A DNA stretch of 35,997 nucleotides, from contig JACCYU010000154.1 of assembly GCA_013696315.1 (NCBI GenBank), positions 1-35,997 of the forward strand, read 5' to 3'. Position 1 is the first letter of the stretch. Each line of letters begins with the position of its first letter. This stretch comes from Gammaproteobacteria bacterium (GTDB lineage Bacteria > Pseudomonadota > Gammaproteobacteria > JACCYU01). Under the pieces are notes generated by a model. It did not search any database, was not told the origin of the DNA, and was given only the letters and a program-made list of their open reading frames with translations. The position numbers and the translations under genes were made by a program. Shown here in pieces: positions 6,407 through 22,661 of this stretch.

Positions 6407-7705
6407 ATGCAACAAATATCAGCGAAGAAAATCAGCTCCGCGCTAGGGCTAATGGCGTTCCTGGGCGCCGGTAGCGCTAGCGCCCTGGGTACGTTGGCTA
6501 TTAATGTCGAGCCCAACGGTACGGCGGGCGCGAACGTGATTGTGATCGGTCCAGCAGGGCCAAACACTGCGGTTCGGAACACCACGGTGGATCGGCGTCT
6601 GAGCCTGCCGCCCGGTCGGTATCAGGTGTTTACGCCGGGTGTGCGTCTGACCGCACCTATCGTCGACAGCGTCTTTGGCGTGGTAAACAAGCCGGTTGTG
6701 AATATCGTCAATGGGCAAACCGTACCATTACTGGCCAATTTCGACCAGCTGCGCCCCGGTACGGGACGCTTATGGCTGCCGGTGAGGTTGGATGGCCAGG
6801 TACAAAGCTTCGCGCGCGCGCAACTCGCGTCCGGTAGTGATGCGCCTGGTGTCGCCATTACCGGCGCCGGCAATCAGCCGATCAACGCCATTTTCGACAA
6901 CCGCGGCAACATGTGGGTCGCCTCGTTCGGCGACAACACGATACTCAAGTACAGCCCGCCCAAGCTCGCCGCCCCCGGTGGAGCCCGAGTGCCGGACGTA
7001 ATCCTCCGCACCAATGCCACGGGGTCCATGAATGGCCCTGTGGGACTCGCCTTTGACCGCCTGGGAGATTTGTGGGTGGGCAACTACGGCCTACAGACGG
7101 GTGGCGGCGGCGCCGGCGACAACACCATCGTTAAATTTACGAGGGCTCAAATCGCTGTGAGTGGTGCACCGACACCTTCGGTCATTCTGAGGGGCTTCAA
7201 CAATCCCTATGGTCACACCTTCGATGCGCGGGGCAACCTGTGGGTGGGCAACACCAGGGCCAACAACGTGTTGCGCTTCCCGCCGGCACAGCTGAAAAAC
7301 GGCGGTACGCCCAATCTCACCATTACCGAGACGAGCATTGGAACCCTGAACGGCCCGCGGGGCCCCGTGTTTGATCGCGACGGCAACTTGTGGGTAGCTA
7401 GCGCGGGTGACGAGCGCGTGGCCGGATACTCCATAAGCGGCGCTACCGTGACGCCATTGTCAACAATTACCCTGCAGGACGAACAGGGTCAACCGGTGCC
7501 GAGTCCAGACGGGCTGGCGTTCGACAATGCCGGGTTTTTGTGGGTGACGGGGACTGGCGGGTTCCTCTATCGATACTCGAAGGCCAGTGTGACCCCCCCC
7601 GGCGGTATCAAACGGCCAGTTACCACCATCAGTCAATTCGGCAACACGCGCGGCGTATTTATCTCGTTCAATCCAAAGCCCACACCGCTGCCAGCGACCC
7701 CTTAA
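6407..7705 (+). CDS. Exported NHL/Vgb-like beta-propeller protein (copy 1)
   Basis: A 432-aa secreted protein. GGAGA lies 7 bases before the ATG at 6407, which is followed by a Sec signal peptide (KKISSALGLMAFLGAGSASA). An immunoglobulin-like or PEGA-like N-terminal module of about 120 residues is followed by five or so propeller repeats. Each repeat carries an FDxxGNLWVxxxGxNTxL core (IFDNRGNMWVASFGDNT, AFDRLGDLWVGNYG, TFDARGNLWVGNT, VFDRDGNLWVASAG, AFDNAGFLWVTGTG). It is paralogous over its full length with the next gene. The role is unknown; a surface or periplasmic binding or lyase function is possible. A strong hairpin follows it. Confidence 0.85.
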   Translation: MQQISAKKISSALGLMAFLGAGSASALGTLAINVEPNGTAGANVIVIGPAGPNTAVRNTTVDRRLSLPPGRYQVFTPGVRLTAPIVDSVFGVVNKPVVNIVNGQTVPLLANFDQLRPGTGRLWLPVRLDGQVQSFARAQLASGSDAPGVAITGAGNQPINAIFDNRGNMWVASFGDNTILKYSPPKLAAPGGARVPDVILRTNATGSMNGPVGLAFDRLGDLWVGNYGLQTGGGGAGDNTIVKFTRAQIAVSGAPTPSVILRGFNNPYGHTFDARGNLWVGNTRANNVLRFPPAQLKNGGTPNLTITETSIGTLNGPRGPVFDRDGNLWVASAGDERVAGYSISGATVTPLSTITLQDEQGQPVPSPDGLAFDNAGFLWVTGTGGFLYRYSKASVTPPGGIKRPVTTISQFGNTRGVFISFNPKPTPLPATP

Positions 7706-10447: not shown

Positions 10448-10521
10448 TGGGGGATCGTCTAGTGGTAGGACAGCGGACTCTGACTCCGTTAACCGAGGTT
10501 CGAATCCTCGTCCCCCAGCCA
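10448..10521 (+). tRNA. tRNA-Gln (anticodon CTG)
   Basis: A 74-nt tRNA including encoded CCA. Acceptor arms TGGGGGA and TCCCCCA pair fully with discriminator G. The T-arm is GAGG.TTCGAAT.CCTC. The anticodon stem GCGGA/TCCGT encloses loop CTCTGAC with anticodon CTG at 10480-10482, reading CAG. It closely resembles E. coli glnV. The 3' half, from 10478, is the attachment site of the downstream island, and integration leaves the tRNA intact. Confidence 0.97.
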
Positions 10522-10523
10522 AT
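10478..10523 (+). repeat. attL: 46-bp direct repeat within tRNA-Gln
   Basis: It starts CTCTGACTCC and ends CCAGCCAAT, spanning the anticodon loop to two bases past the CCA end. It is identical to 20953-20998. The flanks diverge immediately on both sides, which defines the core exactly. Confidence 0.93.
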
Positions 10524-10566
10524 AAACACAATAACTTAGAATAATAACCCGCTAAGTGCGTTCCAG

Positions 10567-10586
10567 TTTGGCGCACTTTTGGCGCA
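10567..10586 (+). repeat. Left arm-type repeats TTTGGCGCA x2
   Basis: TTTGGCGCA occurs at 10567-10575 and again at 10578-10586, one helical turn apart (period 11). The same pair with the same spacing and orientation occurs near the right end at 20815-20834. Position 44 bp inside attL suits integrase arm-binding sites; binding is inferred. Confidence 0.6.
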
Positions 10587-10654
10587 ACAGTTCACAACAA
10601 ATGGTATGATTGCGGGCGTGGTAGCGTGTGCTATCGCTTCGGCAGGTGCTAGTC

Positions 10655-11745
10655 ATGGCCTACGTTCGTGAGCGCGCGGGCAACGATGGGAAGCCCGCTT
10701 ACTGTGTCTACGTCCGCCTCAAGGGCTACCCGCCGCAGACCGCGACTTTCGCCCGCAAGACGGACGCGAAGCGATGGGCGCAGCAAACCGAGGCCGCGAT
10801 CCGCGAGGGGCGGCACTTCAAGAGCGTCGAGGCCAAGCGGCACACATTGGCTGAGCTGATCGAGCGCTACTTGCGGCACGTGGCGCCGCACATGAAACCG
10901 CCGAGGATCGCGAGGCGCATCTACAATGGTGGAAGGCCGAGATCGGCGAGCATGTCTTAGCCGACGTGACGCCTGCGCTGCTCGTCGAAATGCGAGACAC
11001 GCTACTGCGCGGACAAACGCGGCGAGGCAAGCGTAGCGCATCGACAGTCAATCGTTATATGGCCGCGCTTTCGCACGTTTTCACGATGGCCGTGCGGGAG
11101 TGGCAGTGGACAGAAGATAATCCTTTTCGCAAAATATCCACGCTAAAGGAGCCTTCCGGGCGCGTGCGATTCCTGGACGATGACGAACGCGCGCGGTTGC
11201 TTGTCGAGTCTAAGGCGCATAGTGACGAGCTTTACACAATCGTCGTGCTGGCGCTCTCAACTGGGGCGCGGCGCGGCGAACTTCTATCGCTCACTTGGAA
11301 AGACGTCGATCTAGCACGCAGGACACTCGTTCTCCGAGAGACTAAGAACGGTGAGCGGCGATCACTGCCACTGCAAGGCCACGCGTTCGTCTTGGTTCAA
11401 GACATGGCAAAGCTGCGCCGGATCGACACCGACCTGCTGTTTCCCGGCACGAAAGACCCGAAGAGGCCGTTGGCGATCGGCAATATCTTCAACGCGGCAG
11501 TTACGCGCGCCGGCATCGAAGACTTTCACTTTCACGATCTACGGCACAGCGCCGCGTCCTATCTCGCCATGAACGGCGCGACTATACCAGAGATCGCTGG
11601 CGTGCTCGGCCACAAGACCTTGCAGATGGTCAAGCGTTACGCACACCTATCAGATCAGCATACGGCGCAAGTCGTGGCGCGGATGAACACAGCGATATTT
11701 GGCGCCGAAGCTAAGCGGATTCGGGCGCTTGAACAAACCAGATGA
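10655..11745 (+). pseudogene. Island tyrosine integrase, disrupted by a frameshift
   Basis: The first part (10655-10960) starts MAYVRERAG after AGGTG and holds the AP2-like arm-binding domain (PAYCVYVRLKGYPPQTATF). The frame is lost around 10900. The true continuation (DREAHLQWWKAEIGEHVLAD) is in another frame and runs to 11745, with the catalytic domain: Arg in GARRGELLSL, HDLRHSAASYL, LGHKTLQMVKRYAHL with the nucleophile Tyr. Restoring one lost base near CCGCCGAGG would give about 363 residues. It stands next to attL, the normal place for a tRNA-targeting integrase. Unless the shift is a sequencing error or is bypassed, recombination function is lost. Confidence 0.88.
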
Positions 11746-11798
11746 TAGGTGCCGCGCGGCTCCATTAGGCGTGCACAAAATCTAGCGCGGCGTATCGC

Positions 11799-12425
11799 GT
11801 GGATTCCATACTCAAGCGCTATCACGCTGATCTACCTGTGCTAGAGCAGGCTCGTCTTGGCTGCATTAGCGAACGCGAATGGCTCAGCGAACTTGCCATC
11901 GCATTGCTCTGGGAGCCCGATCCAGACAAGCAATACTACTTAAGGGCGGCCATCATCCGTGCATGCAAGGCAGGGGATCTGCCTTACCAAGGGCGACCAC
12001 CTATCAAACCCGGCGAGCCTCCGGTGATTTGGGTTGACGAAACTAGCCCTTTCTACGAGTGCTACTACATAACGCGTGACGACCTTCGAATTTGGCTTGA
12101 GCGTTGTGGGGAGTGGCCTTTGCAGCCCGATATTCTGCTCTCGCGATGGTGGGTTGATGTCAGCAGTTCCATCCAAGCCCCGCGGGTGCGAGCGGATGCG
12201 TTGACCGACGCAATAACGGCGGCTCTGTGTGTTCTACGAGAGGAACTTGGACGTGACTCAACTGCCCACGAGATCTATGACTATCTGCGCCTTCGCGACA
12301 CGACTGGAACCGTACTCGATGAGAATGACCGAGGACTCATATGGGAAACCAGCGGTGGCAAGTGTCACACTACCAGCCTCAAGGCGCTTGCGAAACGTGT
12401 AAACAAACTTCGGCGTCGGAGATAG
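11799..12425 (+). CDS. Hypothetical island protein, 208 aa
   Basis: GTG start. No family recognised. The N-terminal third has SEREWLSELAIALLWEPD. The middle has YYITRDDLRIWLERCGEWPL, an arrangement seen in small-element proteins with a HTH-like part. The C-terminal third (ADALTDAITAALCVLREELG, then AHEIYDYLRLRD) is helical and ends in a basic tail (VNKLRRRR), suggesting nucleic-acid binding. It lies 53 bp after the integrase on the same strand. Function is unknown. Confidence 0.65.
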   Translation: MDSILKRYHADLPVLEQARLGCISEREWLSELAIALLWEPDPDKQYYLRAAIIRACKAGDLPYQGRPPIKPGEPPVIWVDETSPFYECYYITRDDLRIWLERCGEWPLQPDILLSRWWVDVSSSIQAPRVRADALTDAITAALCVLREELGRDSTAHEIYDYLRLRDTTGTVLDENDRGLIWETSGGKCHTTSLKALAKRVNKLRRRR

Positions 12426-12441
12426 GTTGGTGTCTCACCTG

Positions 12442-12498
12442 TCCCGATTTCCCTCCCGATTTCCCCGAGTTCCCTCCCGATTTCCCCGATTTTCCCCC
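12442..12498. repeat. Tandem TCCCGATTTCCC repeats
   Basis: About five head-to-tail units of 10-13 bases, three of them exact TCCCGATTTCCC (12442, 12454, 12475) and two degenerate (near 12463 and 12485). They fill the 168-bp gap between the 208-aa gene and the excisionase-like gene. The strand bias (pyrimidine-rich top strand) and iteron-like phasing suggest a binding site or replication-related site; function not shown. Confidence 0.6.
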
Positions 12499-12593
12499 TT
12501 TCTAAAAATGTAAAGTTTCGTGCTCTAGCCTTCGGCAATCGCTGGCGATAATTCGCCGCGCTTCGCCGATAGGCACATCAATAGGATTAGAGC

Positions 12594-12812
12594 ATGACTG
12601 AAGCAATAGCACACACCCGGTTAATTCCAGTCCCGAAATGGAACGACTACCACGCTTGGCCGCCTCCGGGCGGTCTGCGTCACCTGATCTTTCATGCCGA
12701 GCACAACGGTTTCAAGAGTGCCTTCAAGAGGGTAGGCCGACGCATACTCGTTGATGAGGCCGCGTTCTTTGCGTGCGTAGAACGGCAGCAGAAGAAAGGC
12801 CGCGCAGCCTAA
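12594..12812 (+). CDS. Excisionase-like DNA-binding protein
   Basis: 72 aa. The core RLIPVPKWNDYHAWPPPGG, followed by LRHLIFHAEHNGF and a GRRILVDEAAFFACVE end, matches the small winged-helix proteins encoded upstream of RepA-like ATPases in integrative elements. These are annotated as excisionase or AlpA-like regulators. AGGA precedes the ATG by about 7 bases. It is the first gene of a tightly packed cluster to 15256. It may direct excision or control the downstream genes. Confidence 0.65.
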   Translation: MTEAIAHTRLIPVPKWNDYHAWPPPGGLRHLIFHAEHNGFKSAFKRVGRRILVDEAAFFACVERQQKKGRAA

Positions 12813-12824
12813 AGGGGAGCTTAT

Positions 12825-13049
12825 ATGGTGCAGAATCGAGAACGCCCGGCGAACAGGCCGGGCGTTAATGTGGTGGCGCAACTAAACGTCTTGTCGGAAG
12901 TTCAGAATTCTACTACTACCGACCATAAAGCAGTAGCCACACCGGCGACGCCCCCGCCTAGCGCTTATCGTTTTTCATATTGTCACCCATGCCTGGCCAG
13001 CGCTGCGCGCGTCGGCGATGTGCGTTGCCTCAAAGAGGCTAGAACATGA
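12825..13049 (+). CDS. Small island protein, 74 aa
   Basis: No family recognised. GGGGAG lies 5 bases before the ATG and the stop overlaps the next start by 4 nt (ATGA), which supports real expression. The first half is polar and low-complexity (TTTDHKAVATPATPPP). The end, YCHPCLASAARVGDVRC, has three Cys that could bind a metal. Confidence 0.55.
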   Translation: MVQNRERPANRPGVNVVAQLNVLSEVQNSTTTDHKAVATPATPPPSAYRFSYCHPCLASAARVGDVRCLKEART

Positions 13050-13426
13050 GGCGCCGCTATCCGCCTTATGGACGCCTACTAGCTAAGCGCATGGCACGTC
13101 CGGACACCTGGCGCCGCTATTGGGGTACCTCGCCGGATGGTAAGCGTGTGAGTCTCTTTGTGTTAGCCGGCGTGGATGCCTGGAGGCTCGGCCACGAATG
13201 GATCGAGCATCGCTTACTCGCCGTGAGCGCACCTGATAGCGATCCCACTATATACGACTGGTCAATACTCGCCGGTCACCCGCCGATCCTGGTGTGGCCA
13301 TGCGGGCGCTGTGGAAGTGCGCACCTGGAGTGCCTGATCTGCGCGCTTATCCGCGACGGTTGTGAGCGCGTACTCGCACTTAGGCCACGTTGCTGCATTC
13401 GGTATTTGGCCGAGGAGGTCTCATGA
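13046..13426 (+). CDS. Cys-rich island protein, 126 aa
   Basis: No named family. The C-terminal part has a zinc-ribbon-like cluster (CGRCGSAHLECLIC, then CERVLALRPRCC). The N terminus is basic (MRRRYPPYGRLLAKRMARPD). It overlaps the genes on both sides by 4 nt, so it is translated within the repA operon. A role in replication or regulation is only a guess. Confidence 0.55.
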   Translation: MRRRYPPYGRLLAKRMARPDTWRRYWGTSPDGKRVSLFVLAGVDAWRLGHEWIEHRLLAVSAPDSDPTIYDWSILAGHPPILVWPCGRCGSAHLECLICALIRDGCERVLALRPRCCIRYLAEEVS

Positions 13427-14724
13427 GCCGCGCGCACATTAGATTCGGTCGCGAACGCGGCGACCGCATCGTTAGCTGTGAGGGTGATGCGGGTGATCGC
13501 GCACGTCGGATTGAAACGCGCCAACTTGCAACGCCTGGCAGTCGCGCGGTCATGCGCTGCCTGGCTAATGTGTCGCCGGAGCTTATCCGTTGGCTCTGGC
13601 TTGGTCGGATCGCTTGCGGGAAGGTAACTCTCATCGTGGGCGATCCTGGACTTGGTAAGTCTTTCGCGACCCTGGACATCGCCGCGCGCGTCTCCACCGG
13701 CGCGACTTGGCCGGATGGCCGACCAAGTATTTCGGGTTCGGTCATCCTACTTAGTGCTGAAGACGACGCCGCTGACACCATCCGGCCGCGGCTTGATGCT
13801 TTGGGGGCGGATCTCTCCCGTATTCACATCCTGGATGGAGTGCGCAGTGAGGACAGCGAGACCGGCGAGGCTGTCGAGCGCGCGGTCACTCTAGCCGACA
13901 CGAATGTACTGGCCGAAGCTATCGATTCTGTTACCGATGTCCGGCTGGCCATTGTTGATCCGATCAGCGCGTATCTAGGCACCGCCGATTCTCACAAGAA
14001 CGCCGAGATCCGCAGCCTGCTCGCGCCCCTGGCGAAATTCGCTGCTGCTCGCGGAATAGCCGTAGTCGCCGTGTCGCATCTGAACAAGGGCGCCGGCAGC
14101 GCGATTTACAGGATCATGGGGAGTCTCGCCTTCACGGCCGCCGCGCGCGCCGTATGGGTTGTCGCCAAAGACAAAGATGATGAGACACGTCGGCTCCTGT
14201 TGCCCGTGAAGAATAATTTGGCTACGGACTCAGGCGGGCTCGCCTACCGTATAAAGACACACGACAACGCGCCATTCGTAGAATGGGAACCTGATCCCGT
14301 ACTCGTAGACGTGAGTGATGCCCTCGCAAGCCCTCCGGGCGATGAGGAAGGAAGCTTCCGCCAAGAAGCCGCCAAGTGGCTTACCGAAATTCTCGCGCGT
14401 GGGCCAATGACCGTGAAGGCCCTCAAGCACGAGGCTTCTGGCGCGGGATTTTCGTGGCGTACGATAGAAAGGGCTAAAAGCGCGGTCGGTGCGGTCGCGC
14501 GCAAGCAAGAATTCTCCGGCGGCTGGTGGTGTTGGGAGCTTCCGACTATGACCAAGATTGCCATGAAGACCGCCACACATCCCAAGGTGGCGGCCTTCGC
14601 GAAAAAGCGCCACAGAAAGCCGGTTCTGTCGCGACTTTCAGCGAAGACCGCCAAAGCTCACGGAATGGCGGTCTTCACTGCGTCAAGGCGGCTTTGCAGG
14701 AAGCCTGCGTGGGGGTGTCCGTGA
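13423..14724 (+). CDS. RepA-like AAA ATPase / hexameric helicase family
   Basis: 433 aa, starting at the ATG that overlaps the previous stop (ATGA). A RecA-type core has Walker A GDPGLGKS (about 73-80), ILLSAEDD, and Walker B LAIVDPIS, then VVAVSHLNKG as the sensor strand. This is the RepA/RSF1010-like ATPase family (AAA_25) found in plasmids and satellites, where it acts in replication initiation. The C-terminal 100 residues (KWLTEILARGPMTVKALKHEA) look like a winged helix, followed by a basic Lys-rich tail. Its stop overlaps the next small gene (GTGA). Confidence 0.82.
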   Translation: MSRAHIRFGRERGDRIVSCEGDAGDRARRIETRQLATPGSRAVMRCLANVSPELIRWLWLGRIACGKVTLIVGDPGLGKSFATLDIAARVSTGATWPDGRPSISGSVILLSAEDDAADTIRPRLDALGADLSRIHILDGVRSEDSETGEAVERAVTLADTNVLAEAIDSVTDVRLAIVDPISAYLGTADSHKNAEIRSLLAPLAKFAAARGIAVVAVSHLNKGAGSAIYRIMGSLAFTAAARAVWVVAKDKDDETRRLLLPVKNNLATDSGGLAYRIKTHDNAPFVEWEPDPVLVDVSDALASPPGDEEGSFRQEAAKWLTEILARGPMTVKALKHEASGAGFSWRTIERAKSAVGAVARKQEFSGGWWCWELPTMTKIAMKTATHPKVAAFAKKRHRKPVLSRLSAKTAKAHGMAVFTASRRLCRKPAWGCP

Positions 14725-14831
14725 CGCCGGACCAGTTGCGCGCTGTACTAGCCGAAGAGGATATCCATGATATCGAGGGAGGGGTGCTCAGCGTTGAGAA
14801 TCTGCGCGCATTGGCGCGTACGATGCAATAA
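14721..14831 (+). CDS. Small acidic protein, 36 aa
   Basis: GTG start within the GTGA overlap with the ATPase stop, reading TPDQLRAVLAEEDIHDIEGG then LSVENLRALARTMQ. It is acidic and helical. Its TAA shares its last base with the ATG of the next gene. Coupling on both sides supports translation. No function known. Confidence 0.5.
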   Translation: MTPDQLRAVLAEEDIHDIEGGVLSVENLRALARTMQ

Positions 14832-15256
14832 TGCGTGCAGAGCGACCTGAACACACCCGCCAACACACAAACCAACACGCCAACGAACACACTTCCGGAC
14901 ACACCTTTTGCACACGCCTCAACACACGCTTGACACACTACCGAACGCGCCCTAGCGTTTACGTCATGGCCGACATGGAGACTTGGGATCGTCTATGGGA
15001 GATTTTCTATAGTGGAGACCCGGATGATTGTGCTTAGGTCTACCGCGTCGTTGCGGATGGTGCGTTTGTTAATCCATACTTCCTGAAATGTACGCCGACG
15101 AACGATCTACCAGAAAGCCTCCGGGATGATTATGGTGGTGGCGCTTTCCGGATTCTGGTTCGGCGATGCAAGAAGATGATACTAAGCGGCACTTTTGATA
15201 TTGAACCGCTTCCACCGCCACGTGAGCCCAGACGACAGCCGCGATACAGCCTTTGA
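14831..15256 (+). pseudogene. Island backbone gene interrupted by an in-frame amber codon
   Basis: The frame opens at 14831 and runs to a TAG at 15035-15037, then continues in the same frame without another stop to the TGA at 15254-15256. Downstream codons make coherent protein: VYRVVADGAFVNPYFLK, LRDDYGGGAFRILVRR, KKMILSGTFDIEPLPPP. The start may instead be the internal ATG at 14966 (MADMETWDRLWEIFY). The first 40 residues are His/Thr-rich because of an AC-rich DNA tract. This is one original gene with a nonsense mutation, or less likely a suppressed stop. Function unknown. Confidence 0.7.
14848..14940. repeat. AC-rich degenerate ACACRC tract
   Basis: About ten degenerate copies of (A)ACACACNC or AACACGCC over 90 bp, just after the ATPase operon. 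The asymmetric strand composition and location directly after a RepA-like gene suggest iterons or an origin-proximal region. It is alternatively just biased coding sequence. Confidence 0.45.
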
Positions 15257-15374
15257 ATTAATAATCACTAGGTCTGAGGTTTTATTCCTTCGTCCGCACC
15301 AATTAACCCAAAAAAAAGGGCGATGACGCCGCAGGGTGTCTCGCCAGACATAAGCAATTAAATAAGCAACTCGC

Positions 15375-15442
15375 GTGTCGCAACTCACCGAACTCATTGC
15401 GCAGATCAAGGCTAAGAACCCTCAAATGGGGGCGGATCCTGG
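15375..15442 (+). pseudogene. Scar: N-terminal codons of a type III-like methyltransferase
   Basis: GTG at 15375 opens a frame reading SQLTELIAQIKAKNPQMGAD. From memory of the family this is the opening of type III-like Mod proteins, which continue LEREFKALS. Here the match stops at residue 22 and the sequence jumps into the C-terminal part of a restriction/helicase subunit in a different frame. It looks like the left edge of a large internal deletion. Confidence 0.5.
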
Positions 15443-15964
15443 ATGGAAGCCACCCATGCTAGGGAAGCGGATGGAAGTGAAACTCCACTGCCCCGCTACG
15501 AGCACCACATGCTATGCGACGAGTATGGCCAATTCCCTGCGGAGATGAACGACTGGGAAAGAGAGGTGTTGAAGGTCGAGATGACACGCGAAGGTTTTCA
15601 GGCATGGTACCGTAACCCGTCACGTGCTTGTCCGGAGTCTTTAGGCGTCGCTTACAACGGCAATGATCAGGTCAAGCTCGTACGCCCCGACTTCATCTTC
15701 TTCGTAAAGCAATCCGATGGCAGCTTCGCTGCGGACATTGTAGACCCACACGGGACCCACTTCAGCGACGCATTGGCAAAACTTCAAGGCCTAGCCTACT
15801 ACGCTGAGAAACACTCGGAAGTCTATCGTCGGATAGAGGGTATCGCGAAGGCCGGGGACAAACTGCGTGTGTTGGACCTGACTGACTCGTCGGTGCGGAA
15901 GGCGGTTGCCGAGGCTGCGGACGCAAGGAGTCTTTACCAGAGCGAGTTCGCGAGCGACTATTGA
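15443..15964 (+). pseudogene. C-terminal fragment of a Res-like restriction/helicase subunit
   Basis: 173 residues, with coding sense continuing upstream of the first ATG. It holds the PD-(D/E)xK-like end domain of type III-like Res or DEAD-helicase proteins: RPDFIFFVKQSDG, AADIVDPHG, then SDALAKLQGLAYYAE and LRVLDLTDSSVR. The N-terminal helicase (expected 700 residues or more) is missing. Together with the Mod scar at 15375 this indicates a former two-gene R-M or related defence system that lost its middle. A retained stable fragment with nuclease activity is conceivable but unlikely. Confidence 0.7.
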
Positions 15965-16081
15965 GCACTGATTTTACGCAACTAAGTGCTTGACAAGCTC
16001 TCGGGAAGCTGTCCCCGAGGGCCCTACAATTATTACAGGATTCCAAGCGCGCCGGGAGTAAATCTCCAAGAGTGCCTGTTC

Positions 16082-16966
16082 TTACTTACGTCGGCTCTTT
16101 GAGGGCCAGGGCAGAATGCCGTCAAGCTCCTCCAATAGTGGCTCCTCGTTGTCTGCATCGTCATCATGGGTATGCCCGACGCACCTTAAGCTGTCATCGA
16201 ACCAAATGAGTGACAGGCACTGATCCCACTCTCGTACGAGCATCGCCTCCTCGGCTAACAAGTCGTAGTTCTTGACGCCATTCGAGAACCAGATATCTAC
16301 GGGAATTTCATCATAGTCTTCGATCTTCGCCCCCTCTTTGATCAGCTTGTGGGCGACGCTGCTTTGAGGCGCAGGGTTCCCAATCCCGATCCATCCCTTC
16401 ATTTCCCGGAGTAACCTCGACCTTGATGCGTAACGAACCTTACCGTTCTCGATCAAGACAAAAGCGCACGGGACATCGCAGCTGGCGGCGAAGCGGGAGC
16501 CAGTCGAGCTTACGGACGCCTCATATTTGGCCGCCAGTTGCTTAATGGCATCTAGAGATACATCCAGATCATCGATATCCCTCTTAAACATGTCGTACGG
16601 CAAGAGGCATTCAGCCGCAAAGACATCACATAAGATCTCTTCTTTGGGGCGCGACCGATAACTGATGAGATCCGACGTGCTTATATTCTCTCCGTGATGT
16701 TGTGAGGAGAGTCCAAGCACGATATGCGCGATTTCATGCAGCACTGTGAAGCGTTGTCGCTCCTCTCTGTGGTTCCCGTTCACGGTGATGATGTTCTTGC
16801 TACGAAGGGAAAACGTTTGTCCTGATTCTGCGTCATCCAGGTCGTAACATATTTTGATCTTGGCGTTCGCGGCAGCAGCAAGACGCTCGATATCAACCGG
16901 AACGGAATCGATACCCGCGTCCCTTACAAACTGACGTGCCTTCAGGACGGCTGTGAATTCGTCCAA
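16082..16966 (-). CDS. capP: ImmA/IrrE-type metallopeptidase, CapP-like CBASS regulator
   Basis: 294 aa. The zinc motif is HEIAH (residues 77-81), with the third ligand region EEILCDVFAAECLLP (about 109-123). Cys113 sits beside the metal site; from memory, CapP proteins use such a Cys as a switch. The last 150 residues form a sensor-like region ending in an acidic stretch (THDDDADNEEP). The TTG start abuts the stop of the upstream HTH gene, so the pair is one operon. It is divergent from the CBASS operon. In described CapH-CapP pairs, the protease cleaves the HTH repressor on DNA damage or infection and so induces CBASS; that role is inferred here from motif and position. Confidence 0.8.
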   Translation of the reverse strand: MDEFTAVLKARQFVRDAGIDSVPVDIERLAAAANAKIKICYDLDDAESGQTFSLRSKNIITVNGNHREERQRFTVLHEIAHIVLGLSSQHHGENISTSDLISYRSRPKEEILCDVFAAECLLPYDMFKRDIDDLDVSLDAIKQLAAKYEASVSSTGSRFAASCDVPCAFVLIENGKVRYASRSRLLREMKGWIGIGNPAPQSSVAHKLIKEGAKIEDYDEIPVDIWFSNGVKNYDLLAEEAMLVREWDQCLSLIWFDDSLRCVGHTHDDDADNEEPLLEELDGILPWPSKSRRK

Positions 16967-17350
16967 TTAATCGTCCTGCTCTCCGAGAAATGCGTTCAGG
17001 CGATCCGCCTGTCTCCGCCAGTCATCGGGCGTTTCCGGGCGTTTTCCCCGGAAGCTCATCTGCGCCAAGGGTTCAAGAAGCTCTAAAGGCCGATCCTCAT
17101 CCTTGATAAAAACGTCAATGAGCTGCTCGTTCATTGTCTTCCCAACAAGCAAGCGCAGCAGGCGTGCGCGGCGGGAACTAAGTTTCAGAGTGCGCGCGAA
17201 TGATTCGACGACTTCCCCTGATGGGGAGGTCTTCTCACCCTTCTCCAGCCGGTGAATATAGGCGTGGTCAATCTCGCACAATTTTCCGAACTCGCGAAGG
17301 CTCAAGCCGCGCTCTTCACGAAACATTCTTAGGGCGTAGCCAAAAGACAT
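16967..17350 (-). CDS. capH: XRE-family HTH repressor, CapH-like
   Basis: 127 aa from the ATG at 17350, preceded by AGGAG at 5 bases; an in-frame start 6 codons earlier lacks this. The N-terminal XRE HTH (LREFGKLCEIDHAYIHRLEKGEK, about residues 16-40) is followed by a helical extension (SRRARLLRLLVGK) and a C-terminal acidic/basic tail. It pairs with the ImmA/IrrE protease as substrate and repressor, as in CapH-CapP and ImmR-ImmA. It likely binds the GTTGT/ACAAC repeats in its own upstream region and represses both itself and the CBASS operon. Confidence 0.78.
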   Translation of the reverse strand: MSFGYALRMFREERGLSLREFGKLCEIDHAYIHRLEKGEKTSPSGEVVESFARTLKLSSRRARLLRLLVGKTMNEQLIDVFIKDEDRPLELLEPLAQMSFRGKRPETPDDWRRQADRLNAFLGEQDD

Positions 17351-17389
17351 CTGGGCTCCTCTTGACAAAACGGAGAACTATTCTAGTGT

Positions 17390-17484
17390 GTTGTCCACAT
17401 AAACAACGGCATGGCGCGCAAGCACACTTGATAATATCAGAAACGTGTGATGTTTCCAGTAATATGTTGTTGTTTCAGACAACA
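17390..17484. promoter_or_regulatory. Intergenic operator candidates between capH and the CBASS operon
   Basis: Two inverted repeats share the TTGT/ACAA half-site: GTTGT-N8-ACAAC at 17390-17407 and TGTTGT-N5-ACAACA at 17468-17484. The first overlaps a plausible minus-strand promoter for capH (TTGTTT, 15 bases, TAGAAT). The second lies 55 bases before the first CBASS gene. Another small repeat (GAAAC-N7-GTTTC) lies between them. This suits autorepression plus control of the operon by the XRE protein. Confidence 0.55.
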
Positions 17485-17539
17485 CAAGAGCTAAACGGAC
17501 GGCCTTCAACAAGCCGTTTGTGCGATAGGAGATGAAACT

Positions 17540-17722
17540 ATGAGCAATAAATCATGGAAACCAGGAGAGAAAGCGCCGCGTTCCGGCCAGTACCAGGTAG
17601 TCAGGCCGCGTGGCGGGAAGGGGCCAGAGCGCACCGTCGTGAAGGACGAACCCTTTCCGCCGACGTTTGGCCGAGGCCATCGGTACATACTCGTTGATCC
17701 CACCAAAACCAAGCGGAGGTGA
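17540..17722 (+). CDS. YjzC-like small protein, first gene of the CBASS operon
   Basis: 60 aa. AGGAG lies 8 bases before the ATG. WKPGEKAPRSGQY at the N terminus, ERTVVKDEPFPPTFG in the middle and a basic end (DPTKTKRR) resemble the small YjzC family known from Bacillus and scattered Proteobacteria; no function is established for it. It is the promoter-proximal gene, its stop sits in the loop of the hairpin that carries the phospholipase ribosome-binding site, and it is conserved in frame. It is not a standard CBASS component. It could be a co-factor, an antitoxin-like brake, or mainly a leader cistron. Confidence 0.75.
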   Translation: MSNKSWKPGEKAPRSGQYQVVRPRGGKGPERTVVKDEPFPPTFGRGHRYILVDPTKTKRR

Positions 17723-17727
17723 CTCCG
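17714..17727 (+). promoter_or_regulatory. Hairpin holding the capV Shine-Dalgarno and upstream stop
   Basis: CGGAG (17714-17718) pairs with CTCCG (17723-17727) around the GNRA-type tetraloop GTGA. The Shine-Dalgarno GGAGGTGA (17715-17722) and the TGA stop of the 60-aa gene (17720-17722) both lie inside it. The ATG follows at 17731. A ribosome terminating on the small gene would melt the stem, so capV translation should depend on translation of the upstream gene. Confidence 0.6.
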
Positions 17728-17730
17728 CTG

Positions 17731-18768
17731 ATGGCCGGCAAAGAAGAATCTGAACAGCCGAAACGCCGCATCCTTTGTATTGATGGCGGCGGCATCCTCG
17801 GTACATTCCCGGCGGCCTTTCTCGCTGGCCTGGAACCGGATGTCGATCGCCCGATCGGTTCATATTTCGATCTGATCGCCGGCACCTCGACCGGCGGCAT
17901 CATCGCCATCGGTCTCGCGATGGGGCTGCGCGCCTCGGAGCTTCTCGATCTCTACGAAAAACGTGGTCCGGAAATCTTCGGCCAAGGGCGTGGGCCGGTC
18001 GCGGACTTCATCTTCGACAAGCTGCGGTTCGCGCGAAGGCTTGTTGTGAACAAGCACGATTCCGGGCCGTTACGATCCGTTCTCGAAGACACGCTCGGGG
18101 GCAAGCGGGTTGGCGACGCCGCAACGCGGCTGCTTATCCCGGCATGGAACCCGGTCGCGCGGTCTGTCTATATCTACAAGACCGCGCATCACGCACGCCT
18201 TCGCAACGATTACAAATGCCTGGCCGTCGATGTCGCGATGGCGACCGCTGCTGCACCGACCTACTTCCGCCAGCACGTCACGCAGCACGCCGTTGGCCTC
18301 ACCGACGGCGGCACATGGGCGAACAACCAGGTCGCGCTCGCCGTGGTGGAAGCGATCACGCTTCTCGGCTGGCCACGCGATTCCCTTCAGGTTCTCAGTC
18401 TGGGTTGCCTGGACGAGACCTATACGATTCGCAAATGGGCCGGGATCGGAACGCTCGGCTCGAAAGTCATCAAGCTGTTCATGGACGGGCAGTCGCACGG
18501 TGCGATGGGGATCGCCAAGCTGCTCACAGGTCACGAGCACGAGCGGACGGCCATTCACCGGATCAATCACCCGGTCCCTTACAACGCCTACAAGATGGAC
18601 GACACGCGCGTCATTCAGGATCTCAAGGGGCTGGGCCATTCCTTCGCACGCGATCGACAACCGGTTCTCGATCCCGTGTTCTTCAGCCATCCGGCCGACG
18701 CGTTCATGCCGGTCTACGCGCTGAATGAAGAGCCGGGTGTGACATCAAGAGAGAGGTTGTCGGCATGA
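17731..18768 (+). CDS. capV: Patatin-like phospholipase, CapV-type CBASS effector
   Basis: 345 aa from the ATG at 17731 (GGAGGTG 9 bases upstream); a GTG at 17719 overlapping the previous stop is the alternative. The patatin fold shows an oxyanion motif DGGGILG (18-24), nucleophile GTSTGG with Ser53, and catalytic Asp in TDGG (Asp192). CapV enzymes are activated by the cyclic dinucleotide or trinucleotide of the partner CD-NTase and degrade membrane phospholipids, killing the infected cell. The oxyanion motif has Leu where DGGGxRG proteins usually have Arg. Its stop overlaps the CD-NTase start by 4 nt (ATGA). Confidence 0.9.
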   Translation: MAGKEESEQPKRRILCIDGGGILGTFPAAFLAGLEPDVDRPIGSYFDLIAGTSTGGIIAIGLAMGLRASELLDLYEKRGPEIFGQGRGPVADFIFDKLRFARRLVVNKHDSGPLRSVLEDTLGGKRVGDAATRLLIPAWNPVARSVYIYKTAHHARLRNDYKCLAVDVAMATAAAPTYFRQHVTQHAVGLTDGGTWANNQVALAVVEAITLLGWPRDSLQVLSLGCLDETYTIRKWAGIGTLGSKVIKLFMDGQSHGAMGIAKLLTGHEHERTAIHRINHPVPYNAYKMDDTRVIQDLKGLGHSFARDRQPVLDPVFFSHPADAFMPVYALNEEPGVTSRERLSA

Positions 18769-19967
18769 CGATTGATATGAAGAAGTATTCGGCGTTCCTC
18801 GAACAGGTCGCAAGCGAGATCGACATCCCGCCCGGCAAGTATCAGGATGCTGTGGACCGCTATCAGGCCGTAGGACGCTGGCTTGAAGAGGGCGAATATC
18901 CCGGATGCCAGGGCGAACTCAGCATCTGCGTACAAGGATCGTTTCGCCTGGGAACGGTCACCCGGCCGATTCGCGATGGAATCGAGGCGTGCTACGACAT
19001 CGACCTCGTGTGCGAGTTGCCGTTGCGCAAGAAAGAGACCACGCCGCAAGCCATCAAGTCCATGGTCGGCGACCGGCTCCGCGAACACGGAACCTACAAG
19101 AAGTTGCTCGATCCCGAAGGCCGGCGCTGCTGGACGCTCGAATACGCCGAGCAGGACGGCGTGGGATTTCATCTGGACGTGCTGCCCGCCGTTCCCGACG
19201 CGCGCGGACTGCTCGACACCGCCGTCGCGATCACGAAGAAGGCGGACACCATCTATTCGTGGTCGGCAAGCAATCCCCGTGGCTACGGGGTGTGGTTCGA
19301 CGGCAAGAACGCCGTGGCGTTCTCCCGGGTGGTCGTCGAGCAGAAGCAGGATATCCGGCGCCGCGCATCCCTGATCTACGCGAGCATCGACATGGTTCCC
19401 GACCAGTTGGTCCGCACGCCGCTCCAGCGTTCGATCCAGCTCATGAAGCGCCACCGCGATCTGCGCTTCAATCATCATGATCGGGTCGACTACGCACCGA
19501 TCTCGATTATCATTACGACGCTCGCCGCGTATCTCTACGGCAACGAGCCGGTTGTGTATTCGGCTCTGTCAGGGATCGTCGGAAAGCTCCAGGCGCATGC
19601 AGCGCTCGTCGAGGGCAAGGCCATCGACCGCTCGCTGGCGGCGATGGGATTGATCCAGAGACGGCCGGATGGCACGTGGTACATCGGCAATCCCGTCAAC
19701 CCGGACGAGAATTTTGCGGACCGCTGGCATGAAGACAACCACGCCCGCGCCCGCGCCTTCTTCGCATGGGTGGATGCGCTCCAGAAGGATCTGCTGAACA
19801 TCCTGGGCGAGACGACTCCGCGTCTGCTCAAGGAGCATCTGGGCCGCGCATTGGGCAAGGCGGCTGTAACGAGGCATCTCGATATCCCGGTTCCGCCCGC
19901 TGCGGCCATCGACACGCCGCCGCGCATTCACGTCGCCAGTCCCGCGAAACCGTGGAGGGAGGCGTGA
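18765..19967 (+). CDS. CD-NTase (cGAS/DncV-like nucleotidyltransferase)
   Basis: 400 aa. The catalytic core is intact: VQGSFRLGT with Gly-Ser at 58-59, DID at 78-80, and the third carboxylate in FHLDVLP (Asp138). The C-terminal helical domain contains TPLQRSIQLMKRHRD and the AHAALVEGKAID region typical of the family. AGAGAGG lies 8 bases before the ATG. The enzyme should make the cyclic oligonucleotide that activates the phospholipase; the nucleotide product cannot be told from sequence. The last residues are Pro-rich and end PWREA, so the C terminus is Ala rather than Gly, which matters if the E2 protein conjugates it. Confidence 0.9.
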   Translation: MTIDMKKYSAFLEQVASEIDIPPGKYQDAVDRYQAVGRWLEEGEYPGCQGELSICVQGSFRLGTVTRPIRDGIEACYDIDLVCELPLRKKETTPQAIKSMVGDRLREHGTYKKLLDPEGRRCWTLEYAEQDGVGFHLDVLPAVPDARGLLDTAVAITKKADTIYSWSASNPRGYGVWFDGKNAVAFSRVVVEQKQDIRRRASLIYASIDMVPDQLVRTPLQRSIQLMKRHRDLRFNHHDRVDYAPISIIITTLAAYLYGNEPVVYSALSGIVGKLQAHAALVEGKAIDRSLAAMGLIQRRPDGTWYIGNPVNPDENFADRWHEDNHARARAFFAWVDALQKDLLNILGETTPRLLKEHLGRALGKAAVTRHLDIPVPPAAAIDTPPRIHVASPAKPWREA

Positions 19968-20695
19968 CGGAGGATTTGCGGCGGCAAATCTCCGAACTCA
20001 TCGCCGTTCACAAGAGACTCATCAACGTGCTCGAACGCGGTACGGAAACCATCGTATCCGGTGCGCTGCCGTTCGAGGCGTCCGCCGACGGATTCGAGAC
20101 GATCGCGGATAGGTTTGAGATCGAACTGGCTATACCAGATGCCTTTCCGGACATGCTTCCGCGCGTAAGGGAAACGGCTGGCAGGATCGAGCGAAGCTAC
20201 CCGCATATTAATGTAGAGGGGACGCTCTGTCTTGCGATTCCGGTTGAACAACGCCGGATTTTCTTCGAGCAGCGCTCTTTGTTGGGATTTGTGAACCGGC
20301 TGGTTATCCCTTATCTATACGGTTACTGCCATTGGAATCAGTGCGGTCGACATCCCTTCGATGAGGAAAAGCACGGCGCCGAAGGAATTGTTCAATACTA
20401 CATCGGAAAGCTGCACCTGGCGGATGAACTAGCGGTGTTGGGCGTCGTTTGCTTCCTTTATGAGCACGGTTACCGGGGCCATCATCCCTGTCCGTGCGGG
20501 AGCGGGCTGAAGGTCCGGAGCTGTCATGCTTCCGCGCTGCGTAGTCTTGATCAACATCATACTTCACAAACCATTTGTCACGATTTCTTGTGCGTGTTTG
20601 AAGTCTGCTTCAGTAGGTTTCAGGCTGGTCAGTTCTCCTTCCCAAGACCGCTCAGGAATCAGATCTGTCGCATCCTTAACAAGATTAAAGGCTAG
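19964..20695 (+). CDS. E2-like CBASS accessory protein with SEC-C-type motif
   Basis: 243 aa from the GTG that overlaps the CD-NTase stop by 4 nt. The E2-like core has an FEIELAIPDAFPD strand and HINVEGTLCLAIP, where Cys89 matches the catalytic Cys of bacterial E2 proteins. After a helical part (DELAVLGVVCFLYEHGYRG) comes HPCPCGSGLKVRSCH (175-188), a SEC-C-type zinc motif. No E1 or JAB gene follows, so this is the E2-only (type II-short) layout, where E2 is thought to modify or hold the CD-NTase. The 55 residues after the SEC-C motif are Cys/Phe-rich and unlike the rest; the true end is probably near residue 195, with a junction into foreign sequence. Confidence 0.8.
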   Translation: MTEDLRRQISELIAVHKRLINVLERGTETIVSGALPFEASADGFETIADRFEIELAIPDAFPDMLPRVRETAGRIERSYPHINVEGTLCLAIPVEQRRIFFEQRSLLGFVNRLVIPYLYGYCHWNQCGRHPFDEEKHGAEGIVQYYIGKLHLADELAVLGVVCFLYEHGYRGHHPCPCGSGLKVRSCHASALRSLDQHHTSQTICHDFLCVFEVCFSRFQAGQFSFPRPLRNQICRILNKIKG

Positions 20696-20770
20696 CTGTT
20701 CCCGCGCGGAGCTGGGCCTGCGTCGATCAGTCGCGCCCAGCACTTCCCATTTCCGTTGAGATGCATTCGG
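20564..20770 (-). other. Antisense open frame, likely gene remnant
   Basis: Read on the minus strand this stretch encodes normal-looking protein (REQLAFNLVKDATDLIPERS, then ADFKHAQEIVTNGL, stop at 20564-20566) with an upstream stop near 20771 and no ATG. It overlaps the doubtful C-terminal tail of the E2 gene. It may be the tail of a lost gene joined to the island end. Possible GTG start at 20743. No family recognised. Confidence 0.3.
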
Positions 20771-20814
20771 CTATTCCCTACTGACCGGCCCGCAGCAGCA
20801 TGCTACATAGTAGA

Positions 20815-20834
20815 TTTGGCGCAATTTTGGCGCA
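20815..20834 (+). repeat. Right arm-type repeats TTTGGCGCA x2
   Basis: TTTGGCGCA at 20815-20823 and 20826-20834, period 11, same strand and spacing as the left pair at 10567-10586. It lies 119 bp inside attR. The 368-bp gene-free stretch 20696-21063 otherwise holds only attR and the second element's repeats. Confidence 0.6.
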
Positions 20835-20952
20835 GTACGCAACAAGAAAAGGCCGCAAACCACAAAAGGGCGCAAGCATGCCTGCGTACTAAGCCGTTGA
20901 ATACATTGTTATCATCTGTGGTAAGTTGTTGTAAATAGTGGTAAAAGGCCGT

Positions 20953-20998
20953 CTCTGACTCCGTTAACCGAGGTTCGAATCCTCGTCCCCCAGCCAAT
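20953..20998 (+). repeat. attR: 46-bp copy of the tRNA-Gln 3' half
   Basis: Identical to 10478-10523. It lacks the 5' half of the tRNA, so it is not a functional tRNA gene. It marks the right border of the island. Confidence 0.93.
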
Positions 20999-21063: not shown

Positions 21064-21855
21064 TTAGGGCTTGAGATAAAAAGCGGCATGGAGCGCCGCG
21101 TTTAATTTGCTGGCGGCTTCCTCTTGAATGCCTGGCAACACATGCGAGTAGGTGTCCAAGGTGATGGCAATTGTTGAGTGGCCCAGGCGCTCGGAGACAA
21201 CCTTGGGATGGACACCTTGACGTAGCAATTGCGTGGCGTGCGAATGTCTTAAGTCATGAAGGCGTAGAGTCTGCAAGCCTGCTTTTCTAACCAGCTTGCG
21301 ATAAGCCATCGTGAGCGCGTTGGGCGGCCATACACTGCCATCCTCCCGCGCGAAAACGAGGCCCTGATCCTTATACGCGGGCCCGATCATCAAACGCGCC
21401 TTTTTCTGCTCGATATCGTGGACACGTAGAGCATCCATCGTCATGGTAAGTAGGGCGATGGTGCGCTGACTCTTTTTCGTTTTGGGTTTCTTGAACTGGA
21501 TACACCCGCGGGTTTGTTCGACCGTTTGGCGGACGGTCAACATTGCGCGTACTAGATCTACATCCTGCCAGCGCACAGCTAGAAGCTCTCCTCGCCGCAG
21601 ACCAGTCGTGACCGCGACCAACAACGGCACGTAGAGGCGCGTTCCTCTCGCCAGATCCAAGAGTATCCCCGTCTCGCGTTCATCTATCGCCCGCATCTCT
21701 CGATGCTCCGGGCGCGGAGTCTCGACGGCATCGGCCGAATTCCGTACAACGAGACGCCACTTTACCGCCGTCTTAAGTGCGAGCTTTAGTACCCGGTGGT
21801 GCTGCAGCAAAGTCTTTTCCGAACGCCGGCCGAGCTTTGGCATAGTGCCCCCCAT
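21064..21855 (-). pseudogene. Second tyrosine integrase, N-terminal domain missing
   Basis: 263 codons. They hold the second half of the core-binding domain and a full catalytic domain: TTGLRRGELLAVRW, LHDLRHSHATQLLRQG, ERLGHSTIAITLDTYSHVLPG with the Tyr. The arm-binding and early core-binding regions, about 110-120 residues in relatives, are absent; the frame starts at MGGTMPKLGRRSEKT. Its 3' end points at attR, so it belongs to another element that used the same tRNA-Gln site. The start is 5 bp from the Fic fragment, which is also cut at its N terminus. Confidence 0.8.
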
Positions 21856-21860
21856 TTAGT

Positions 21861-22661
21861 CGCAAGTTACTGCTCGAACTGCATACGGTATTGCTCAAGA
21901 GTGGGCGCGGCCAGGACAAAGAGCCAGGACGCATTCGTATAGAGCAAAATTGGATAGGAGTTCACGGACGTCCAATCGAAGAAGCCTTTCATGTACCGCC
22001 AGAAGCACATCTCCTCCCGCAATTTATTGATAACTGGCTGGAATACTATCGCGGAGAATCGCCTGATCCCTTGGTGCAGCTTGCGGTAATTCACGCACAG
22101 TTCGAAATTTTGCATCCATTCATGGATGGCAATGGCCGCATAGGCCGACTGCTTGTCCCGCTGTTCTTGTACGAAAAGCGCATTCTGTCTGAGCCAGTAT
22201 TCTATCTTTCCGCCTATCTTGAAGCGCATCGGGACGAGTATGAGCAGGGGCTACGGGTGCTGTCAGGCCTAGACAGCTGGAATCAGTGGATACTATTCTT
22301 TCTGCGGGCTATCGAGTCGCAGGCCGAGGAGAATGCGGCGAAGGCGCGAGATATACAAACATTGTATGAATCGCTAAAGCGGACAATATTGGATCTCACG
22401 CGGTCACAGTACGCCGTCCCATTGCTGGACGCTATGTTCGCCAAACCCATATTTCGCAGCTCCGAGCTATTCGATCGACCGGAGATGCCGAGCCAGCCCG
22501 CGGTAACTCATATGCTGAACCAGCTTAAGGAAGCTGGTGTGCTTACTTTGGTGCGCGAAGCCGCCGGCCGCCGCCCTCAAGTTTTAATGCTTGAAAAACT
22601 ATTGAGTATTGCCGAAGGAAGAGAAGTGCGCCTGCCCGCGGTCGCCCAAGTGCCTGCCTAA
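21861..22661 (+). pseudogene. Fic-domain protein, N-terminally truncated
   Basis: The frame is open from about 21861, with the first usable start a TTG at 21891. The Fic motif HPFMDGNGRIGR is complete, with the preceding EILHPF helix, and is followed by a C-terminal winged-helix-like part (PAVTHMLNQLKEAGVLTLVRE). Fic proteins transfer AMP to target proteins. Relatives have about 100 more N-terminal residues with an inhibitory helix ahead of GRGQDKEPG; here that part is gone. It is divergent from the truncated integrase. An active fragment is possible if translated, but a remnant is more likely. The 211 bp after it hold no gene I can support. Confidence 0.78.

Follow-up and report, generated by a model that had tools for sequence, protein, structure and literature searches.

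A YjzC-like gene at the head of a putatively CapH/CapP-controlled CBASS operon and its recurrent location behind HTH/M78 regulators

Described systems closest to the locus

CapH/CapP, CapW and CapK/CapS are viewed as modular switches for many immune operons. According to the summary of Lau et al. 2022 in PMC13373217, ssDNA activates proteases of the CapP type, which then cut the repressor CapH. As far as this account goes, the HTH repressor and the M78 protease are encoded divergently ahead of the CBASS or Bub operons they control. The same arrangement is present in the window, i.e. the whole stretch of 35,997 nt analysed here, and the PADLOC models of capH and capP match in the window as well as in other loci encoding YjzC-like proteins. 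The window differs in that the controller is separated from the immune genes by a YjzC-like gene, for which PMC13373217, within its summary of these controllers, describes no counterpart. It likewise contains the genes of a type II-short CBASS in the order CapV, CD-NTase and E2, to which it adds a first gene and the putative CapH/CapP control.

A comparable arrangement is known from the CapK/CapS pairs, which are followed by the small protein YegP of unknown function in 57 of 443 cases (PMC13373217). There, too, a controller responding to DNA damage precedes a small uncharacterised protein; however, the chemistry of the controller (kinase/STAS) and the family of the small protein are different.

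In Mycobacterium tuberculosis the YjzC-like protein Rv1954A is encoded first in the higBA operon, the promoter of which is under repression by HigA (PMC3912914), and its translation has been demonstrated by tagging (PMC3912914, PMC2897130). The Rv1954A-higB-higA-SecB locus thus resembles the window in that a YjzC-like gene leads a toxin operon whose promoter is repressed by an HTH protein, whereas Rv1954A comprises 100 aa and the operon encodes a toxin-antitoxin-chaperone system. Since the promoter upstream of Rv1954A is not inducible by DNA damage, the damage-inducible promoter being located downstream of Rv1954A (PMC2897130), this example weighs against a strict link of YjzC to DNA damage.

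Operon structure and conservation of yjzC

The 60-aa YjzC-like protein is encoded at positions 17540..17722 on the forward strand (ATG to TGA), with an AGGAG Shine-Dalgarno sequence at 17527-17531, 8 nt ahead of the start codon. As is evident from the sequence, it opens a tight operon that continues with the genes of a CapV-like patatin phospholipase effector (17719..18768, +; Pfam Patatin 1.9e-23, NCBIfam CBASS_lipase 219 bits at a cut-off of 200, PADLOC Effector 1e-92), of the CD-NTase acting as CBASS cyclase (18765..19967, +; PADLOC Cyclase 7.5e-111, Pfam DncV-like_NTFase) and of the E2-like protein typical of type II-short CBASS (19964..20695, +; PADLOC E2 4.7e-71). Cyclase, effector and E2-like protein, as identified by the PADLOC models, are adjacent, which agrees with a type II-short CBASS. 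The position of yjzC at the head of the operon and its good Shine-Dalgarno sequence, both stated in the preliminary description, were confirmed, and so was the overlap of the effector gene signals with yjzC. The GTG at 17719, a possible start of capV, overlaps the yjzC stop codon by 4 nt and the capV Shine-Dalgarno sequence (17715-17719) lies within the last codons of yjzC; judged from homologues, the ATG at 17731 is the likelier start of capV.

The preliminary description left the divergently oriented genes unnamed. They are predicted to encode a CapH-like HTH repressor (16967..17350, -; PADLOC capH 5.5e-14, HTH_31) and a CapP-like metalloprotease of the M78 (ImmA/IrrE) family (16082..16966, -; PADLOC capP 1.2e-53, Peptidase_M78 2.1e-16) with the HExxH motif, so that the divergent pair required for CapH/CapP control is located beside the promoter region. 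The capH start at ATG 17350 is supported by the homologue in L194, the orthologous locus introduced below, while the reading frame is open up to TTG 17368. An inverted repeat, 76% complementary over 21 nt, provides two candidate halves of a CapH operator at 17387..17407 (TGTGTTGTCCACATAAACAAC) and 17466..17486 (GTTGTTGTTTCAGACAACACA). The second half includes the inner palindrome GTTGT-N5-ACAAC, which occurs once in the 36-kb window (0.06 expected), and a similar palindrome, TGTTGT...ACAACA, precedes capH in L194.

Also missed before were two att-like repeats delimiting a 10.5-kb element (region 10448-20996) that contains an AAA ATPase gene, capH/capP and the CBASS operon. The first one is the 3' end of a tRNA-Gln(CTG) gene (10497..10521, +), the second one an exact 25-bp copy at the right edge of the element (20972..20996, +), with 0 such repeats expected by chance. 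A tyrosine integrase beside the tRNA-Gln gene seems to be split into two open reading frames (10628-10960 and 10966-11745). Just beyond the right copy, the region 21064-22661 comprises another tyrosine recombinase (-), which is short at its N-terminus, and a SoFic-like Fic protein (+) without its N-terminal part.

A class-wide search revealed L194, an operon with the same gene order in a genome of another bacterial family: CapP/CapH are encoded divergently, followed by YjzC, CapV, CD-NTase and E2. The proteins of the window and of L194 share identities of 73% (YjzC), 75% (CapV), 65% (cyclase), 56% (E2), 84% (CapH) and 70% (CapP). The yjzC genes differ at 9, 7 and 27 sites in the first, second and third codon position, respectively, i.e. 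27 of 43 differences fall on the third position, and a dN of 0.158 and a dS of 0.963 correspond to a dN/dS of about 0.16. Based on these sequence comparisons yjzC is a real, conserved protein-coding gene under purifying selection, the strength of which is about the same as on CapV.

The junction between yjzC and capV is predicted to fold into a hairpin (17713..17729, +), the 7-bp stem of which covers the capV Shine-Dalgarno sequence while the loop contains the stop codon of yjzC. The fold of the 46-nt junction RNA reached a z-score of -2.36, equal stability was observed in 6 of 200 shuffled sequences, and the unpaired probability of the stem is near 0. This placement of the capV ribosome site and the yjzC stop codon suggests coupled translation from yjzC to capV. 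Taken further, it might indicate that the yjzC reading frame mainly serves as a translated leader setting the expression of capV. However, the low dN/dS shows the conservation of the amino acid sequence, the hairpin is absent from L194 although the tight junction is kept there, and YjzC is uncoupled from the next gene in other loci (gap of about 86 nt in L029), which makes a mere leader function highly improbable.

Properties and distribution of the YjzC-like protein

The protein of the window shares the N-terminal motif KPG-x-APxSGQY and the motif E-T...PPT with the proteins of Pfam family PF14168 (YjzC-like), yet its match to this family (18.4 bits, E 0.0027) remains below the curated gathering cut-off of 25. 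Full-length homology was detected to proteins annotated in RefSeq as "YjzC family protein", with identities of 64% to WP_317252639.1 and 58% to WP_062151945.1, and the closest relatives are 57-70% identical over most of the length, or 57-73% if L194 is included. Relatives were found in 40 loci from GTDB, on 39 plasmids and in 42 loci from IMG/VR. The conserved small family proposed in the preliminary description thus exists, and the protein indeed does not belong to the canonical CBASS gene set, as it is absent from the PADLOC CBASS models; neither PADLOC nor NCBIfam holds any model matching the YjzC of the window. Its search against a viral library returned a single match, a phage protein itself named YjzC-like, and no match was obtained in phage GenBank records.

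With a pI of 11 and a net charge of +10 the protein of the window is strongly basic. The basic charge is a consistent trait of the family, all 92 members measured having a pI above 9 and a mean net charge of +6.6. The structure prediction gave a three-stranded beta protein (pLDDT 86.5), and the structure search found neither a solved structural relative nor a fold match. YjzC is best read as a member of the YjzC-like superfamily, namely a small and soluble beta-protein of strongly basic charge that is encoded by a mobile gene.

Three weak hits (L153, L156, L157) are longer proteins carrying CxxC (SGIYRCxxC...PPQNxxQH) and align to A1, the alignment of the YjzC proteins, with an hhalign probability of 96.9. 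A possible origin of YjzC is a zinc-ribbon-like domain that has lost its zinc; this origin was retained as a lead only, given that the CxxC relatives had been found with A1 itself and that the A2 alignment consists of three rows.

Genomic neighbourhood of YjzC and its putative role

The neighbourhood of the YjzC genes was surveyed in a sample of genomes, with M78 and HTH proteins called by profiles built here and by Pfam/PADLOC checks of examples. Within 2 kb upstream of YjzC, the HExxH M78 profile detected a protease in 14 of 38 GTDB loci, while the other 2-kb bins contained 0 or 1. After loci with similar flanking DNA had been collapsed to independent ones, M78 proteases were encoded in the upstream 2 kb of 14 of 74 loci as compared to 0 of 71 for the following 2 kb (Fisher's test, 6e-5) and 3 of 67 downstream (0.0095). 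The base rate of M78 genes in 60 genomes of the phylum (0.31 per Mb) corresponds to a random expectation near 0.1% per locus, or 0.07 in 73 loci, against 13 observed with the window excluded. All three YjzC loci newly found in the class-wide scan (L192, L193, L194) possess HTH and M78 genes as well. The recurrent link between YjzC and HTH/M78 regulators is shown by these sequence data, and it is not explained by a general island effect, which was rejected because almost no M78 genes occur at other distances.

The regulators appear in several arrangements. CapH and CapP are divergent in the window and in L002, L016, L020, L029, L151, L192 and L194 as well as on the plasmids L167, L168, L170 and L178, and co-directional in L005 and L193; in L007, L010 and their relatives a fused HTH-M78 antitoxin-like protein takes their place, which in L179 is encoded divergently. 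Since the M78 lineages beside YjzC are mostly 25-40% identical to one another, the pairing of YjzC and M78 must have arisen or been shuffled several times. The association is not exclusive in either direction: about 80% of the independent YjzC loci lack M78 upstream, with some of them located behind an S8 peptidase or ArdC and others behind nothing recognisable, and most CapH/CapP-like pairs of the phylum lack YjzC.

In view of its patchy distribution, namely 4 of 369 genomes of the class and 12 of 398 of the phylum including weak hits (six strong), and of the diversity of its contexts, among them conjugative plasmids and restriction loci, YjzC might also be regarded as a passenger. It would then be a small mobile gene that serves some unrelated purpose in housekeeping or in mobile elements and is often inserted behind the regulated promoters of islands and plasmids. 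However, the link to M78 is specific for the position (upstream 2 kb only) and involves several unrelated M78 lineages, and L194 keeps the operon order, so that a passenger role seems rather unlikely.

A protease gene is frequently found upstream of YjzC. In L017, L032 and L035, YjzC follows an S8 subtilase gene by 18-39 nt (in L032 with an AAA ATPase before it), and in L018 by about 0.6 kb. In L026 and L027 it is located behind ArdC with a zincin domain, the same model matching in L025. A different small family behind such a switch was observed in L151, where a DUF2188 protein (7114-7443) is encoded between the CapP-like gene and YjzC.

The genes downstream of YjzC clearly vary from locus to locus. 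Multiubiquitin and E1 (DUF6791/ThiF, DUF6527) are encoded in L020, L193 and L179, a ThiF protein in L178 and TIR proteins in L018, L026, L028 and L040, and in L168 and L170 nothing but plasmid functions accompanies CapH/CapP-YjzC. The 4.0-kb plasmid NZ_CP065845.1 of Klebsiella quasipneumoniae encodes replication genes, CapP (PADLOC capP 1e-50), CapH (capH 4.6e-27) and YjzC only, and the small plasmids NZ_CP073787.1 and NC_019092.1 are similar. Conversely, a multiubiquitin operon is under CapH/CapP without YjzC in L159, and the same holds for CBASS operons in L161 (CapV-CDN-E2, the order of the window), L158 (CapV-CDN-E1/E2), L160 (CDN-E2-CapV) and L162 (CDN-E2). The varying downstream genes and the matched operons without YjzC indicate that YjzC is an optional gene inserted first behind the switch.

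The preliminary description had proposed YjzC as a possible unrecognised CBASS component, and a dedicated component modulating CapV or the cyclase could indeed be suggested by its first position with the tight capV junction, its conservation in L194 and its location at the head of a different CBASS architecture in L029. However, of the independent YjzC loci, about 79 in number, only three adjoin CBASS, namely the window, L194 and L029. When the window was considered together with 105 YjzC loci taken from four sources, a cyclase was found nearby in two cases (the window and L029). Independently of the flanks of about 1.5 kb covered by the cyclase search, the comparison of 398 genomes of the phylum identified 19 with a relative of the window cyclase and 12 with a YjzC hit, and the window genome was the only one with both, so that none of the 18 other genomes of the cyclase clade encodes YjzC. 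Taking furthermore into account that L161 has the same CapH/CapP-CapV-CDN-E2 order without YjzC, such a dedicated CBASS role seems very unlikely. A CBASS-specific role as the main association of YjzC was rejected by the genome-level co-occurrence: YjzC is present neither in most homologous CBASS operons nor mainly together with CBASS. Absence from homologous CBASS operons and occurrence mostly in unrelated contexts had been named beforehand as the findings that would speak against the proposal; they largely apply, since CBASS operons without YjzC exist and most YjzC loci lack CBASS, but the contexts are not random in view of the HTH and M78 genes upstream. A literature search, with Lau et al. 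2022 lying outside of it, yielded no paper linking YjzC to CBASS or CapH/CapP.

As YjzC tracks the damage-sensing switch rather than CBASS, it gives the impression of a so far unstudied partner to this switch, and YjzC is probably an accessory of CapH/CapP-type regulatory cassettes and not a CBASS-specific part. In the window CapH would repress the divergent promoter region. Upon phage infection or DNA damage ssDNA would cause CapP to cleave CapH, and the promoter would open. YjzC would then be made first and CapV, the cyclase and E2 after it, the translation of capV being presumably tied to yjzC via the shared stop/Shine-Dalgarno junction. Its occurrence with CapH/CapP where no effector follows, as on the 4-kb plasmids, suggests that the target of YjzC is most likely on the side of regulation or damage and not CapV. 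Our preferred guess is that it might bind nucleic acids or damp the protease/repressor loop.

The same plasmids, on which replication genes, CapH/CapP and YjzC stand alone, together with the purifying selection and the invariably basic charge, might also point to YjzC as an output of the switch, i.e. a small stress or anti-phage effector that is used alone or stacked before defence systems. This appears doubtful, since YjzC has neither features known from toxins or nucleases nor a match to a toxin family (Pfam, PADLOC, NCBIfam) or to a fold, and since many YjzC loci lack such a switch. We tentatively consider it possible that CapH-CapP-YjzC forms a self-contained mobile module for the response to DNA damage or phages, which has repeatedly been placed ahead of CBASS and multiubiquitin operons. 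In such a module YjzC would be a direct output or feedback regulator of ssDNA-activated M78 proteases and an unrecognised general part of immune control.

If YjzC accompanies a single type of switch in CBASS, Bub and toxin-antitoxin-like operons and on bare plasmids, either a third component of this switch has been overlooked or YjzC is a small effector that acts on its own in the DNA damage response. This is directly testable with the naturally occurring pairs that differ in the presence of YjzC (the window and L194 versus L161; L020 versus L159) and with the 4-kb enterobacterial plasmid version.

Two further arrangements were observed among the YjzC loci. In L011, L015 and L147 (Rhodobacterales-type) a HigB-like toxin, an HTH-M78 antitoxin-like protein and YjzC are encoded in this order, followed by a convergent reverse transcriptase gene whose product resembles that of a retron. 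In L179 (Nostoc linckia NIES-25 plasmid3) the HTH-M78 fusion diverges from genes for YjzC, a multiubiquitin-like protein, a possible E2 and a ThiF protein with a JAB-like N-terminal part, which apparently constitute a complete ubiquitin-like conjugation operon.
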